From: Hyphomicrobium sp. NDB2Meth4
GTDB lineage: Bacteria > Pseudomonadota > Alphaproteobacteria > Rhizobiales > Hyphomicrobiaceae
Length of the DNA: 64,000 bases
Assembly (NCBI RefSeq): GCF_900117445.1
Contig: NZ_FPEJ01000001.1
Coordinates: 486,501 to 550,500, forward strand
Reading direction: 5' to 3'
A program made the translations under genes and the position numbers. The notes under the pieces are model-generated. The model worked only from the letters and a program-made list of their open reading frames with translations, was not told where the DNA came from and searched no databases. Positions 51,275 to 58,580 of this stretch are shown in pieces. The first letter of the stretch is position 1. Every line of letters starts with the position of its first letter.

Positions 51275-51589
51275 TTGCCGCACCGCAACGTCATTTCCTT
51301 TCTCGAAACAAATTTCCGTTTAGTGTCGTTCGGCGTCGGGAATTGTGTCTAGCGTATCACGGCGCAGTCGGCGCGGTGGCGCGCCGGCGAGTATCGTTAA
51401 ACTCGCTCTGTGCGCGCTGCCGCGTCTTCCTTGCATAAGTCTCTTGAATCTTGCCGTCGACGCTCCCCATCTCAGCCCGCGTCGAACCTTCTCACCCACC
51501 GCGACATCTCATCTTCACCATCCAGGGAACATTCCTGGACAGCCGCGCGTCGACGCCCTAAACGCCGATACTCGAGCAGTGAGTGCAGG
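51275..51589. other. Intergenic region upstream of the GH15 gene
   Basis: 315 nt without a convincing gene. The GH15 frame is open back to 51410, but the extra residues are a Ser/Arg-rich stretch unlike the family. Presumably carries the promoter of the trehalose/glucan cluster; no box was identified. Confidence 0.4.
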
Positions 51590-53401
51590 ATGCCCGGTCG
51601 CAACGCTTCCAATCCCTCAGCAAACCTGGACCTCGCTCCAATCGGCAACGGGCGAACGTCTGCCCTTGTCGACACCAACGGGCGCATCGTCTGGTGGTGC
51701 TTCCCGAGGTTCGATTCAGATCCCGTTTTCTCACGCCTTTTGGCCGGAGACGATGAAAAGGGCTTCTGCGACGTCGTCATGCAGGGCCAGACGACGACGC
51801 ACGCCGCGTACGTCCGCAACACCGCCATTGTCGAGACAATACTAGAGGACGCGAGCGGCAACGCCGTCCGTATCACCGATTTTGCCCCGCGTTTCATGCT
51901 CTATGAGCGCGCGTTCCACCCCGCCCAGCTGATCCGCCGCATCGAACCCCTGCGCGGTCTGCCCCGTATCACGATCCGATTGCGCCCGACTTTCAACTAC
52001 GGCCAACCCGCCGAGCCCCCCGCCATCGGATCGAACCACATGCGATTTGGCGGTGGCGCCGATGTACTGCGCGTCACCACCGACGCGCCGCTCTCCTACA
52101 TTGCCCACGAAACGCCCTTCGCGCTGACAAATCCCGTGACGCTCGTACTCGGCTCGGACGAACCGCTCCAAGCCTCCGTCGACAGCATCAGCCGCGAGTT
52201 TCTCGAACGCACGCGCAGCTACTGGGTGAATTGGGTGCGCGGCCTCGGCATCCCGCTCGACTGGCAGTCTGCGATCATCCGCGCTGCCATAACTTTGAAG
52301 CTTTGCCAGTTCGAGGAAACGGGAGCGATCATCGCAGCCGCGACCACGTCGATTCCAGAGGCCCCCGGCACGCAACGCAATTGGGATTACCGCTTCTGTT
52401 GGCTCCGCGACGCCTTCTTTGTGGTCAGCGCACTCAATCGTCTGGGCGCGACCCAGACGATGGAAAACTACCTCAACTACATCACCACCATTGCCGTCGA
52501 AACCGAGACCCCACTGCAGCCAGTCTACGGCATCATCCCAAATCTGCCGCTCACCGAGCGCATTGCCGAAAACCTCGCCGGCTTCCGCGGTATGGGGCCT
52601 GTCCGCATCGGCAACCAGGCCGCCGAGCAAACCCAGCACGACGCATACGGCAGCATCATCCTTGGCGCCTCGCATATGTTCATCGACGAGCGTCTGCCGG
52701 GCATGGGCGATGCGGCGCTGTTTCGCCGGTTGGAACCGCTCGGACACCTGGCACGCAAACGCTACCTCGAGCCCGATGCCGGTCCGTGGGAATATCGCGG
52801 CCGCGCACGCATTCATACCTATTCGGCAATGATGTGCTGGGTTGCCTGCGATCGGCTCGCGCGCCTTGCCGGCTTGTTGTCGCTCAACGAGCAAGCCGGG
52901 TACTGGCGCGCCGAGGCCGACAAAATCCGTGATGAGATCCTCTCCCGCGCCTGGAGCAAGAAGTGGGGCGCCCTCGCAGGAGCCTTCGAGCACGACGACC
53001 TCGACGCCAGCGTGCTGCTCGCCGCCGAGTTCGGGCTGCTGCGCGCCGATGACGAGCGCTATCGCTCAACCGTCGAAGTCATCGGCCGCGAGTTGGGCCG
53101 CAACGGCTTCATGATGCGCTATGTCGCCGACGACGATTTCGGAGCGCCCGAAACTGCATTTCTCGCTTGCCAGTTCTGGTACGCCGATGCCTTGGCCTTG
53201 ATCGGCGAGACGCAAAAGGCACGCGACATCTTCACCGACATTCTCTCGCGCACCAATACTTTTGGCGTGCTCGGAGAGGACATTGATCCCGTCTCCGGCC
53301 AGCTCTGGGGCAACATTCCTCAGACCTATTGCATGGCGGGCATCATTAACACCGCGATGAAGTTATCCCGCAGCTGGGAAGACGCTTGGGTGGCCAGCTA
53401 A
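51590..53401 (+). CDS. Glycoside hydrolase family 15 protein (glucoamylase or trehalase type)
   Basis: A 603-residue GH15 enzyme. The N-terminal domain starts LDLAPIGNGRTSALVDTNGRIVWWCFPRFDSDPVF, typical of bacterial GH15. The (alpha/alpha)6 catalytic part has NWDYRFCWLRDAFFVV near residue 264 and GVLGEDIDPVSGQLWGN near the end, where the catalytic glutamate is expected. No signal peptide, so cytoplasmic. Neighbours otsA and otsB suggest the substrate is trehalose or a glucan made with it; GH15 trehalases are known. ATG 51590 starts MPGRNASNPSAN. Confidence 0.88.
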   Translation: MPGRNASNPSANLDLAPIGNGRTSALVDTNGRIVWWCFPRFDSDPVFSRLLAGDDEKGFCDVVMQGQTTTHAAYVRNTAIVETILEDASGNAVRITDFAPRFMLYERAFHPAQLIRRIEPLRGLPRITIRLRPTFNYGQPAEPPAIGSNHMRFGGGADVLRVTTDAPLSYIAHETPFALTNPVTLVLGSDEPLQASVDSISREFLERTRSYWVNWVRGLGIPLDWQSAIIRAAITLKLCQFEETGAIIAAATTSIPEAPGTQRNWDYRFCWLRDAFFVVSALNRLGATQTMENYLNYITTIAVETETPLQPVYGIIPNLPLTERIAENLAGFRGMGPVRIGNQAAEQTQHDAYGSIILGASHMFIDERLPGMGDAALFRRLEPLGHLARKRYLEPDAGPWEYRGRARIHTYSAMMCWVACDRLARLAGLLSLNEQAGYWRAEADKIRDEILSRAWSKKWGALAGAFEHDDLDASVLLAAEFGLLRADDERYRSTVEVIGRELGRNGFMMRYVADDDFGAPETAFLACQFWYADALALIGETQKARDIFTDILSRTNTFGVLGEDIDPVSGQLWGNIPQTYCMAGIINTAMKLSRSWEDAWVAS

Positions 53402-53491: not shown

Positions 53492-54946
53492 ATGGGCCGC
53501 CTCGTACTCATTTCAAATCGCGTCGCCGACCTCTCGAAAGCTTCACAAGCGGGAGGCATGGCCGTCGCGTTAGCCGATACGCTGCGCACGCGCGGCGGAC
53601 TTTGGCTCGGCTGGAGCGGGAAGATCGGCGAGCGCCGCGACGAGCAGCGCAGCGATCCTGACTTCACCAAATTCGGCAACGCCACCGTCGCCACCTTACC
53701 GCTCAGCGCCCGCGAGCATGAAGCCTACTACATTGGCTATTCCAACAACGTGCTCTGGCCCGTGTTTCACGATCGCCTGGATATCGCCCAGTTCGAAGCT
53801 GGCTACTATCAGCGCTATCTCGAGGTGAACAAGCGGTTCGCACGCGCGCTGCACCCGCTCCTGCGCCCCGACGACAGCATCTGGGTGCACGACTATCACA
53901 TGATCCCGCTCGGCATGGAGCTGCGCGCACTCGGCGTCACCAATCCGATCGGCTTTTTCCTGCACATCCCGGTGCCGCCCGCACAGACGTTCCTAGCCAT
54001 TCCCGAGCACCGCGAGCTGGCACGAGGCCTCGCCGCTTACGATCTCATCGGGCTGCAGACCAAGGTCGATGTCGGCAATCTGATCGACTACCTGCAGGAT
54101 GGTGTCTTCGGCCGCATTCTCCAGGATGGGCGCATCCGCGCCTTCGATCGCGAGCTGTCGATCGCCGCCTTTCCGGTTGCCATCGACGTCGATGCATTCG
54201 TGGATTCGCGCCCCAAGCACACTGCTAAAAAGCTGTCCACCACCCGCATCCTCGGTGTCGATCGCCTAGACTACACCAAAGGGCTGCCGCAGAAGTTCCG
54301 CGCCTTCAGCCGCTTCCTCGAGAAATACCCGGACTACCACGGCAAAGTTCTTCTCTCGCAGATCGCACCGCCGACGCGCGAGACGGTCACCGCCTACGCT
54401 GACATCCGTCATGAGCTGGAAACGCTCTCGGGCCGTATCAACGGCCGCTTCGGCGAGTTGGACTGGGTGCCGATCCAGTACATCCATCGCTCCACGCCGC
54501 GTAAATTGCTGGTCGACGTCTACCGCAACTCCCGCGTCGGGTTCGTCACCCCGCTGCGCGACGGCATGAACCTCGTCGCCAAGGAATACGTCGCAGCCCA
54601 GGATCCCGATGATCCCGGCGTTCTCATACTGTCGCGATTCGCCGGTGCTGCTGAGCAGTTGCAAGAAGCATTGATCGTCAATCCCTACGATATCGAGGAG
54701 ATGGCCGACGCGCTGAAGAAGGCGCTCGACATGGACCTGACCGAACGGCGTGAACGCCACGAGGCGCTCCTGTCGGACATCCGCCGCAACGACACCTACG
54801 CATGGTGCCGCTCCTTCCTAGACTCGTTGGAAAGCACCAGCCGTAGCGCGCCACTCGCGATCCCCACCTCGCCTTCGGAAGCGGCGCGCCGCGCGTTGCA
54901 GGAAATCGAGATGGCCCGCGTCGCACCACGCGCGCGCCATCAATGA
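53492..54946 (+). CDS. otsA: Trehalose-6-phosphate synthase
   Basis: A 484-residue GT20 glycosyltransferase that joins UDP-glucose and glucose-6-phosphate. [56 protein letters not shown] and [16 protein letters not shown] are diagnostic for OtsA. It starts 90 nt after GH15 with AGGAG before the ATG. Trehalose is a compatible solute and stress protectant. A PfkB kinase gene separates it from otsB. Confidence 0.95.
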
Positions 54947-54988: not shown

Positions 54989-56077
54989 ATGAAGGCACTC
55001 TGCATCGGTGGCGCAACGGTCGACGCGATCGCGACGATAGAAAGCGATAGCATCGAACGCATGTCGATGTTGAATGCAGAGACGTCCTTTCTGTTGCTCG
55101 AAGAAGGACGCAAGACGGAAGCGCACGATATCTCCACCCATTGCGGCGGCGGCGCCGTCAACGCGGCTGTCGCCCTTTCACGCCTCGGCCTTGACGCATC
55201 CGCCATCGCCAAGCTTGGCCGCGATGCGCGCGCCGACTTCATCCTGTCGCGCCTCACCGCGGAAGGCGTATCGACGCGCTGGATCATCCGCGACGCCACC
55301 GCCCCTACCGGCGCCTCCATGATCATCTCGTCCCACGAGCGCAACGCAGCCGTCTTCACGTTTCGCGGTGCGAATGCCCACCTCGAGTCGGCAGACCTCG
55401 CTCGCGAGGCTTTCGACGTCGACCTGGTCTACATCTCGAGCCTTTCCGGCAAATCCGCCGACTGCTTCCCCCAGGCAGTACGCATGGCGCGTACCGCAGG
55501 CGCCCTCATCGCCGTCAACGCAACGATCCGCCAGCTCGCGGTGCACCCCGACGCGTTCCTCGCAAATCTCGCCGCGATCGACATCCTCGCACTCAACCGC
55601 CGCGAGGCCGAAGCGCTCCTGCCCCGGCTGACCAACTCCGCCGCGAGCAGCCCCATGCCGCGCATCACCGCTGGTGATCAGGCGCCGCCGTTGCTGACCC
55701 GCGGGCTGCAATCGGGCACCTTCGAAATGAGTTTGCCGACTTTCTTCGCGGCATTGCGGGCCCGCGGCACACGCCACATTATGCTCACCGATGGCAGCAA
55801 CGGAGCTTTCGTCTGCTCTGACGCGGACATGATCTACTGCCCCGCCGAGCCCACGGACGTCGCCAGCACAGCAGGCGCGGGCGACGCAATGGGCGCGACA
55901 TTCTCTGCCTTCATCACCCTCGGCTACCCGGCCGACGTCGCATTGAAGGCTGCGACAATCAATGCCGCGAACGTCGTGGCTTTCATTGACACGCAGTCCG
56001 GGTTATTGGGGCGGCACGCCCTGGAGCAGCGTCTCGGCGCCAGCTCCGGACAAAAACTGCGCAGATGGAAGATGTGA
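54989..56077 (+). CDS. PfkB family sugar kinase between otsA and otsB
   Basis: A 362-residue ribokinase-fold kinase starting MKALCIGGATVDAIATIESDSIERM. The N-terminal substrate-lid region has THCGGGAVNAAVALSRLG; the catalytic loop is STAGAGDAMGATFSAF. PfkB members phosphorylate sugars or nucleosides at a primary hydroxyl. The substrate is not clear; its place inside the trehalose pathway suggests glucose, fructose or a related sugar, which is only inference. It is 42 nt from otsA and 15 nt from otsB. Confidence 0.87.
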   Translation: MKALCIGGATVDAIATIESDSIERMSMLNAETSFLLLEEGRKTEAHDISTHCGGGAVNAAVALSRLGLDASAIAKLGRDARADFILSRLTAEGVSTRWIIRDATAPTGASMIISSHERNAAVFTFRGANAHLESADLAREAFDVDLVYISSLSGKSADCFPQAVRMARTAGALIAVNATIRQLAVHPDAFLANLAAIDILALNRREAEALLPRLTNSAASSPMPRITAGDQAPPLLTRGLQSGTFEMSLPTFFAALRARGTRHIMLTDGSNGAFVCSDADMIYCPAEPTDVASTAGAGDAMGATFSAFITLGYPADVALKAATINAANVVAFIDTQSGLLGRHALEQRLGASSGQKLRRWKM

Positions 56078-56092
56078 GGGGAACCTGGCCTG

Positions 56093-56920
56093 ATGACCGA
56101 CAGAGCCGTAGCCGCGAGAAAGCAACCGGCAGAATTGGTCTTCACGGAGGAACATGCCGTTGAGTTTCCTCCCATCTCCGCCGGCAGCCTCCTCGGCGGC
56201 GACGTACACAACATCGCCCTGTTTCTCGATTGCGACGGCACCCTGCTCGACATTGCAGCGACGCCGGGCGAGGTGCGCGTACCCACTGGACTGGTCGAAC
56301 TGCTGAAGCGCATCTCCGATGGCCTCGGCGGCGCTCTCGCCTTGCTGACCGGCCGTCAGCTCGCCGAAATCGACATGCTGCTTACGCCCATCGAATTCAT
56401 CGGAGCCGGCGTCCACGGCGCCGAGCTACGCATGCTTCCCGGCGGCGCCGTCACACGCATTACCAATTCGCTGCCCGCCGCTCTCATCGACGACGTGATG
56501 CATCACGTACAGAAGCTGCCCGGCATCATCGCTGAGCCGAAGGGCCCAGGCATCGCGGTTCACTATCGGCTGGCCCCTCATCTCGCTCCCTCGCTAGAAG
56601 CCGAGCTGCGCGCGCTTGTCGCCCGCCACGCCGATGATCTCGTGCTCTGCCCCGGTCGCCAGCTCTTCGAGATCATTCCTGCCGGCCACTCCAAGGGCAC
56701 GGCCCTAGAGACGATGCTGAAGCTGCCCGACTTTGCCCACCGCAAGCCGATCATGATCGGTGACGACGTCGGCGACATCCCGGCACTCGAAGCAGCGTTC
56801 CGGCTAGGGGGCGCAGGTCTGCGCGTCGCCGGCGAGCAGTTCCGCAAAGGCGCAGAATTCGCCGGCCCCGCGGAAGTGATAAGCTGGCTCCAGCGCCTGG
56901 AACTGCTGCTGCGCAAATAA
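56093..56920 (+). CDS. otsB: Trehalose-6-phosphate phosphatase
   Basis: A 275-residue HAD-type phosphatase that releases trehalose from trehalose-6-phosphate. Catalytic motif FLDCDGTLLDIA is near residue 44, LLTGRQLAEIDMLL and GVHGAEL follow, and the C-terminal MIGDDVGDIPALEAAF binds Mg2+. The ~40 residues before the HAD core are not conserved. Completes the OtsA-OtsB pair. It ends 5 nt from the convergent iron-permease-like gene. Confidence 0.93.
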   Translation: MTDRAVAARKQPAELVFTEEHAVEFPPISAGSLLGGDVHNIALFLDCDGTLLDIAATPGEVRVPTGLVELLKRISDGLGGALALLTGRQLAEIDMLLTPIEFIGAGVHGAELRMLPGGAVTRITNSLPAALIDDVMHHVQKLPGIIAEPKGPGIAVHYRLAPHLAPSLEAELRALVARHADDLVLCPGRQLFEIIPAGHSKGTALETMLKLPDFAHRKPIMIGDDVGDIPALEAAFRLGGAGLRVAGEQFRKGAEFAGPAEVISWLQRLELLLRK

Positions 56921-57509: not shown

Positions 57510-58580
57510 ATGGGCGTTAAGACAGCAAGCGAGCGTCCAGTCATCAACGCGCATGGCGGAAAAGTGCTGCCCAGCGTCGAGGTCGACAGTTACAACTTGG
57601 AGGTAAAAGACGACGACGGCTTCGTTGGCGACAAGGCCAGCCGTGGCGCCTTTCACGAGATGCTCGACAAATGGCGCGAGCCGCTGCGCAAGCTTGGCGC
57701 AGATCCCTTGGGCGACACCACCTCCGAACAATTGAGCAAGAAGCAGATCGATAAGCTCCTCGCCGACGGAGACCCCGAAGCCGCAGGCATCGTGCACAGC
57801 GCCGTTGAAGAATTTTCCCAGACGCTGTTCTCCGTCATCAAGCGCTTCGTAAAAGTCGCCGCCTGGCGCGACACCGAAGCAATCGTCATCGGCGGCGGCT
57901 TCCGCGGCAGTCGTGTCGGGGAGCTCGCCGCAGGCCGCACCGAGGTCCTTCTCAAGGCTGCCGACTATGACATCGAGTTGGAGCTCATCCACAATGATCC
58001 CGACGAGGCCGGCCTGATCGGCGCCGCCCACCTGATGCCGTCCTGGATGCTCGAAGGCCACGACGGCATCCTCGCCGTCGATATCGGCGGCACCAACATA
58101 CGCGTCGGCATCGTTGAGACACGGCTCAAGAAGGCCAAAGATCTCTCCAAGGCAGAAGTGTTCGCGTCCGACCTCTGGCGCCATGGCGACGAGAAAACCA
58201 AACGCGACGGCGCCGTCGCCCGGCTGATCGAGATGCTCGCCGAGCACATTGCCATCGCAGAGAAGAAAGATCTGAAACTCGCCCCGGTCGTCGGCATCGG
58301 CTGCCCCGGCGTCATCCGCGAAGACGGGTCCATCGAGGCGGGCGCTCAGAACCTGCCCGGCAACTGGGAAAGCAGCCGCTTCAACCTAGCAGATTGCGTC
58401 CGCGAGCAGCTACCGCTGATCGGCGGGCATGAGACGCAAGTCGTCATTCACAACGACGCCGTGGTGCAGGGCCTCAGCGAACTGCCCCAGATGCAGGACT
58501 ATACCCGCTGGGGCGTGCTCACCATCGGCACCGGCCTCGGCAACGCCCGCTTCACAAATCGTCACAAGACGACAGATTGA
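57510..58580 (+). CDS. ROK family protein with circularly permuted halves
   Basis: A 356-residue ROK-type kinase/regulator homologue. Residues ~1-185 look like the C-terminal part of ordinary ROK proteins: LLADGDPEAAGIVHSAVEEF, EAIVIGGGFRGSRVGELAAG, then HNDPDEAGLIGAAHL. Residues ~190-350 look like the N-terminal part: ILAVDIGGTNIRVGIVETR, GIGCPGVI, NLPGNWES, the catalytic NDA in VVIHNDAVVQG, and LTIGTGLGNARF at the very end. The ROK zinc motif is absent. With catalytic residues present, a glucokinase-like role beside trehalose genes is plausible. ATG 57510 has GGTAGG 3 nt upstream; TTG 57498 is an alternative. Confidence 0.85.
   Translation: MGVKTASERPVINAHGGKVLPSVEVDSYNLEVKDDDGFVGDKASRGAFHEMLDKWREPLRKLGADPLGDTTSEQLSKKQIDKLLADGDPEAAGIVHSAVEEFSQTLFSVIKRFVKVAAWRDTEAIVIGGGFRGSRVGELAAGRTEVLLKAADYDIELELIHNDPDEAGLIGAAHLMPSWMLEGHDGILAVDIGGTNIRVGIVETRLKKAKDLSKAEVFASDLWRHGDEKTKRDGAVARLIEMLAEHIAIAEKKDLKLAPVVGIGCPGVIREDGSIEAGAQNLPGNWESSRFNLADCVREQLPLIGGHETQVVIHNDAVVQGLSELPQMQDYTRWGVLTIGTGLGNARFTNRHKTTD

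Follow-up and report, generated by a model that had tools for sequence, protein, structure and literature searches.

Can a sugar kinase of the ROK family carry the two halves of its chain in reverse order and still work as a kinase? This question is raised by one gene of Hyphomicrobium sp. NDB2Meth4 (Alphaproteobacteria), located in a stretch of 64,000 nucleotides (contig NZ_FPEJ01000001.1, positions 486,501 to 550,500), hereafter the window, to which all coordinates refer. A preliminary description of this gene, made from the sequence alone, had proposed a true circular permutation. Here we find that the circular permutation of the ROK fold is real and conserved, recurring in numerous rhizobia and their relatives. 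The protein is likely to be a naturally permuted ROK sugar kinase, folded as a single two-domain unit that most likely binds Mg-ATP. In the best reading, these proteins constitute a new permuted branch of the ROK kinases. Because its new termini lie close to the sugar site, a natural permutant with such wide conservation allows a direct test of how ROK kinases, as two-domain hinge enzymes, close around their substrates.

Order of the motifs and of the two halves

The gene and its parts are given below; residue numbering starts with the ATG at 57510, and motifs are read from the translation.

57510..58580, + strand: circularly permuted ROK-family gene, coordinates including the stop codon; product of 356 aa
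57534..57617, + strand: new N-terminal arm, residues 9-36, with H15 and a strand at residues 23-28
57567..58040, + strand: segment equivalent to the ROK C-terminal half, residues 20-177 (profile match over 71-177, structural match from residue 20-23)
57618..57632, + strand: GFVGD, residues 37-41, near the helix after the zinc loop of normal ROKs, with the conserved D41
57885-57899, + strand: VIGGG, residues 126-130
58008-58028, + strand: AGLIGAA, residues 167-173
58041..58067, + strand: junction, residues 178-186, joining the old ROK C-terminus to the old N-terminus (the gap 177/187 between the profile matches)
58068..58565, + strand: segment equivalent to the ROK N-terminal half, residues 187-352
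58080-58094, + strand: DIGGT, residues 191-195
58293-58310, + strand: GIGCPG, residues 262-267
58350-58367, + strand: NLPGNW, in the segment equivalent to the ROK N-terminal half
58449-58460, + strand: HNDA, residues 314-317
58527-58535, + strand: GTG, residues 340-342

The translation bears out the order first noticed, with the late ROK motifs VIGGG and AGLIGAA preceding DIGGT, GxGxPG, NDA and GTG. In a Pfam scan, the ROK family (PF00480) was reached in two stretches, with 39.3 bits against a cut-off of 22.9. When searched alone, the N-terminal part matched positions 191-291 of the Pfam profile (E 0.028), and the C-terminal part positions 2-142 (E 8.7e-7). The same crossing was obtained by profile-profile comparison between an alignment of 29 permuted sequences (A1) and our own ROK profile, built from 35 distinct normal-order sequences (loci L091-L153, after dropping seven loci and the rows without DIGGT/GTG motifs): residues 187-351 matched profile positions 2-142 (E 2.3e-12), and residues 71-177, crossing this match, positions 198-297 (E 2.1e-6).

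Among 24 rotations of the permuted alignment in steps of 15 residues, the best was the one cut at 180, which scored 123.5 versus 91.4 for the native order and gave one collinear alignment over ROK positions 2-297. Once the polyphosphate-glucokinase-like rows were left out of the profile, the best of ten rotations was the cut at 185 (95.9 versus 69.7 native), and for those same rows, used as a control family with normal order, no rotation among 12 improved on the native score of 161.8. The match of the weaker, N-terminal half is not due to chance: it scored 50.8, above the maximum of 24.5 among 100 column shuffles and the 16.4 obtained on reversal. HMMER-type searches hardly discriminate here, because HMMER sums both stretches in either order: restoring the normal order gave 39.7 bits against Pfam ROK versus 39.3 for the native sequence, with 32.2 and 30.8 for two other rotations, and changed the NCBIfam scores little. 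The Pfam rotation is therefore a weak test, whereas the profile-profile scan does discriminate. As the halves are reversed with respect to the usual linear ROK order, the protein is classed as a permuted variant and not as an ordinary member of the family.

Recurrence of the permuted order

Among the stretches scored in a scan of GTDB contigs, at least 542 relatives were found, and the best 80 were taken as loci. Counting the window's own genome, the permuted gene is carried by 9 of the 240 genomes of a class sample, 16 of the 121 of an order sample, and 22 of the 398 of a phylum sample, five of the latter lying outside the class. All matches in these samples were near full length (E 1e-8 in the search of 398 genomes), and no close relative with normal order was seen in them or in the plasmid records. 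The 117 distinct sequences, the window protein included, align collinearly, and in 115 of them the motifs GGG, DIGGT/S-N, HNDA/G and GTGLG occur in the permuted order. The other two are L088 (G122), which stops before GTG, and L180, where a single difference, at the position ahead of GGG, made the motif pattern miss it. One internal stop was reported in each of four matches (G122, G698, G538 and G381).

The permuted gene is also present in 207 plasmid records, including Sinorhizobium meliloti pSymB, and in 204 of these at least 80% of the protein lies in one place. With the C-terminal half alone as query, 206 records were found, 205 of them with at least 80% of that half. The exception is an unannotated fragment of 306 bases on a Bradyrhizobium barranii plasmid (L197:3001-3306), 39% identical to residues 237-348 and probably a remnant of a permuted gene. 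Among the plasmid rows listed, annotated features are called 'ROK family protein', with 'hypothetical protein' in a few cases, and many rows have no feature; a half-swapped branch has stayed hidden under a general label in well-studied symbionts.

Such an order could in principle come from an assembly artefact, a frameshift product or two ROK genes in tandem that decayed into a pseudogene. L088 is shortened by its stop, and one plasmid holds just the fragment; for the window gene itself, no sign of this kind was found. The same order in isolates, metagenome-assembled genomes (MAGs) and plasmids, the near full-length matches and a ratio of non-synonymous to synonymous substitutions (dN/dS) of about 0.1 (0.098-0.113 against four relatives) leave this explanation practically no probability, and we consider it refuted by the survey. 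Since the relatives share the order, neither an artefact nor a normal-order orthologue accounts for it.

When a tree was computed from the DIGGT half (65 rows, two of four Glk glucokinase rows having entered; quick search), with support given only by the Shimodaira-Hasegawa-like approximate likelihood ratio test (SH-aLRT), the permuted rows formed one group on long branches (95), which joined the polyphosphate-glucokinase-like rows (95). This grouping makes a single origin of the permutation likely.

Several features of individual homologues are worth recording. Many from Bradyrhizobium (e.g., L020, L024 and L031; also L075 and L085) have 24-45 residues after GTGLGN, compared with 11 in the window protein; L059, with 12, is an exception. 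In this tail Lys, Asp, Glu and Asn abound, and its position coincides precisely with the new C-terminus. Two genomes, G531 and G547, carry two permuted copies each.

Predicted structure

The structure prediction that the preliminary description had called for agrees with the sequence comparison. AlphaFold2 modelled the single chain as one compact fold, with a predicted local distance difference test score (pLDDT) of 89.4 and a predicted template modelling score (pTM) of 0.88. The two halves tile head to tail 20 of 23 ROK structures, these being the entries common to the structure lists of both halves (50 rows each). In 3r8e, for instance, residues 0-145 are covered by the C-terminal half and 146-290 by the N-terminal half. 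According to the model and its structure matches, both halves of the ROK fold are present, the Z of the N-terminal half being moderate. The sequential match of the model to human hexokinase (1hkb), which we take to be a tandem duplicate, spans chain positions 257-701 (286 aligned), crossing both copies as expected of a permutant; the root-mean-square deviation of 33.8 arises because the two copies are not one rigid body.

The alternatives would be domain swapping, where a normal ROK would be completed only in a swapped dimer, or two unrelated halves. Sequence alone is compatible with swapping, and NagK does form a dimer, according to PMC10031466. However, the single-chain model is compact, as its pTM indicates, and the arms disordered in the isolated half become ordered in the whole chain: residues 1-30 had a pLDDT below 50 when the N-terminal half was modelled alone, versus 82 for residues 11-20 and 93 for residues 21-30 in the whole model. 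We therefore regard this arrangement as very improbable. The true circular permutation is supported by the crossing profile matches, the rotation maximum, the compact model and the same order in relatives.

In the proposed rearrangement, the old N- and C-termini would have been fused at residues 178-186, both termini belonging to the small domain in NagK (PMC10031466). The new termini would lie directly behind the GTG phosphate-binding strand, ahead of the E-x-G-H/zinc region, and the permuted chain would still fold as one two-domain ROK-like unit.

Active-site residues and the sugar site

In PsNagK, as described in PMC10031466, D6 binds the metal, T10 and T132 the phosphate, and D105 acts as the base, whereas N104, E154, H157 and D187 contact the sugar. 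The same paper gives D6, T10, N104, D105 and T132 as needed or important, and terms zinc characteristic of ROK kinases. By motif, D6, T10, T132, D105 and N104 correspond to D191, T195, T341, D316 and N315 of the window protein.

Conservation was counted over the 117 distinct sequences. D191, N196, N315 and D316 are invariant, as are Q280 to G284 (QNLPG), W286 and H225. T195 is Thr in 107 rows and Ser in 10, and T341 is Thr in all 116 ungapped rows, the remaining one having a gap. The DxGGT phosphate/metal loop, the N-D base and the GTG phosphate loop are all present, which suggests that the phosphate-transfer chemistry is probably kept and that the protein is probably an active sugar kinase. 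Mg-ATP would most likely be bound through D191, T195 and T341, and D316, together with N315, would activate the hydroxyl group of the sugar that receives the phosphate.

The sugar side is different. As the preliminary description had it, the zinc motif is missing: CxCGxxGC is absent from the window protein and from alignments A1 and A3. The E-x-G-H sugar/zinc motif, looked for by eye, could not be placed, a point absent from the preliminary description, and NagK E154 and H157 are left without a clear counterpart. We weighed three registers, namely D26/N29, H15 (the hhalign placement) and L20-P21-S22, the last with both residues lost. D26 is Asp in 108 rows, Glu in 3 and Thr, Ala, Ser or Asn in 6; N29 is Asn in 111, Ser in 5 and Gly in 1; and positions 19 and 22 are variable. 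H15 is present in 116 rows, with a gap in the remaining one, and D41 is Asp in 116 and Glu in one. H15 and D41 both lie on the new N-terminal side and may belong to a rebuilt sugar site; D41 may be the counterpart of NagK D187, and the E-x-G-H strand of normal ROKs might fall within the arm of residues 9-36. With the zinc motif absent and E-x-G-H not placed, the sugar site looks remodelled and sugar recognition looks changed.

Comparison with known kinases

The nearest normal-order relatives sampled are zinc-less ROKs resembling polyphosphate glucokinases (L098/L135, L134 and L136; solved relative 1woq), L098, L134 and L136 also lacking CxCGxxGC. Within the DIGGT half they share the order DIGGT, ND, QG and GTG and are the nearest group in the half-length tree, with 34% identity over 175 aligned columns that cover this half and little beyond. 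They differ in having the normal order and 242-262 aa, versus 356 in the window protein. The zinc ROK kinases (NagK, NanK and ROK glucokinase) share the fold of both halves and the metal, phosphate and base residues, and differ in the order of the halves and in possessing CxCGxxGC; their E-x-G-H was not found in the permuted protein.

The window protein scores far below the cut-offs of ROK glucokinase (TIGR00744: 35.3 bits, or 34.9 with the normal order restored, versus 260.35) and polyphosphate glucokinase (NF045942: 24.8 versus 250), the latter not being reached by the polyphosphate-glucokinase-like rows either. Its C-terminal half matches Glk glucokinase (PF02685) weakly, with 13.2 bits, below the cut-off of 22.1. 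The Glk of its own genome is a separate gene with normal order (G000:C4:866472-867398, PF02685 over 1-312); this genome has one Glk and no other ROK above threshold. The replacement of glucokinase as the sole reason for the gene was rejected, as eight of the nine carriers examined have Glk; G203, without it, has a normal ROK.

Trehalose genes and possible function

Upstream of the permuted gene, the window carries the following genes, identified by Pfam scan, with an opposite-strand PF04120 gene between otsB and the permuted gene.

51410..53401, + strand: GH15 glycosidase with a trehalase-like N-terminal domain
53492..54946, + strand: otsA, trehalose-6-phosphate synthase (PF00982)
54989..56077, + strand: PfkB-type sugar kinase
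56093..56920, + strand: otsB, trehalose-6-phosphate phosphatase (PF02358), a recurrent neighbour

Among the 80 contig loci, trehalose genes lie within the 6-kb flanks in eight Hyphomicrobium loci and L062, and none was found in those of the Bradyrhizobium loci or of Hyphomicrobium L015, L018 and L026, whose flanks are full. They occur in five of 19 further regions (L177-L195), namely L186 and L192-L195. In L186 (G258), otsB, GH15 and otsA are divergent from the permuted gene, and in Rhizobium, Shinella and Roseateles plasmids otsB adjoins it divergently; no trehalose genes stand beside it in the regions of S. meliloti pSymB and Bradyrhizobium p195_2. The three samples yielded 40 carrier genomes, of which 32 were tested for PF02358: it was present in 30, and six genomes from three families (G000, G327, G258, G303, G338 and G582) have it no more than about 0.8 kb from the permuted gene. 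In the order sample, otsB occurs in 14 of 16 carriers versus 40 of 105 non-carriers (Fisher p 2.5e-4, relatedness not corrected). The pairing of this kinase-like gene with a sugar-phosphate phosphatase is a recurrent theme, far from universal.

An alternative is a permuted ROK fold that no longer phosphorylates sugars and acts instead as a partner protein or as a sensor of sugars or sugar phosphates. Transcription repressors are known in the ROK family, and divergent arrangements are common for regulators; in several lineages the permuted gene and otsB point away from each other and share the region upstream of both, the E-x-G-H and zinc motifs were not found, and the genome already has a glucokinase. 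However, the metal, phosphate and base residues are retained across the 117 sequences, which would not be required of a sensor, and the Pfam scan detected no DNA-binding domain. We consider this alternative unlikely and favour the permuted kinase.

As for the substrate of such a kinase, glucose, for example released from trehalose, is a tentative guess, held with less than even confidence; trehalose or another trehalose-pathway sugar is a more doubtful one, and other sugars or polyols take the remainder. Glucokinase activity is not favoured over other sugars because of the ordinary Glk in the genome and the unplaced E-x-G-H contacts. The fuller proposal is that of an undescribed permuted clade of kinases whose rebuilt site opposes OtsB by acting on a sugar of the trehalose pathway, which might be trehalose; it seems to us improbable as a whole. 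If it is true, the trehalose 6-phosphate metabolism of rhizobia and related bacteria would gain a further step, driven by ATP. Should the trehalose link hold, it would name a so far unassigned enzyme or sensor of trehalose metabolism.

In the PubMed Central open library we found no published description of a permuted ROK and no match combining ROK, trehalose and otsB. The string 'permut' does not occur in the available portions of PMC12696579 and PMC10031466, and the only match for an S. meliloti pSymB ROK concerns a ROK regulator of pSymA. A PADLOC search for anti-phage defence genes gave no match at E up to 1.

Some neighbourhoods and records deserve separate mention. G336 has no PF02358; there, an ABC transporter of the sugar-binding type lies ahead of the permuted gene, and the next gene after it encodes a Hydrolase_3/S6PP-type HAD phosphatase (L188:7059-7778). 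On two Rhizobium plasmids (L192 and L194), the permuted gene and its divergent otsB lie just upstream of repABC. A further otsA-like gene, the second of the window's genome, lies on a different contig (G000:C8:162703-164151). Two records are possibly mislabelled or mixed: L036, labelled Frankia sp. RB7, with 63% identity, like Bradyrhizobium, and L195, labelled Roseateles sp. XES5 (UNVERIFIED_ORG), whose otsB pair is arranged as in Shinella.
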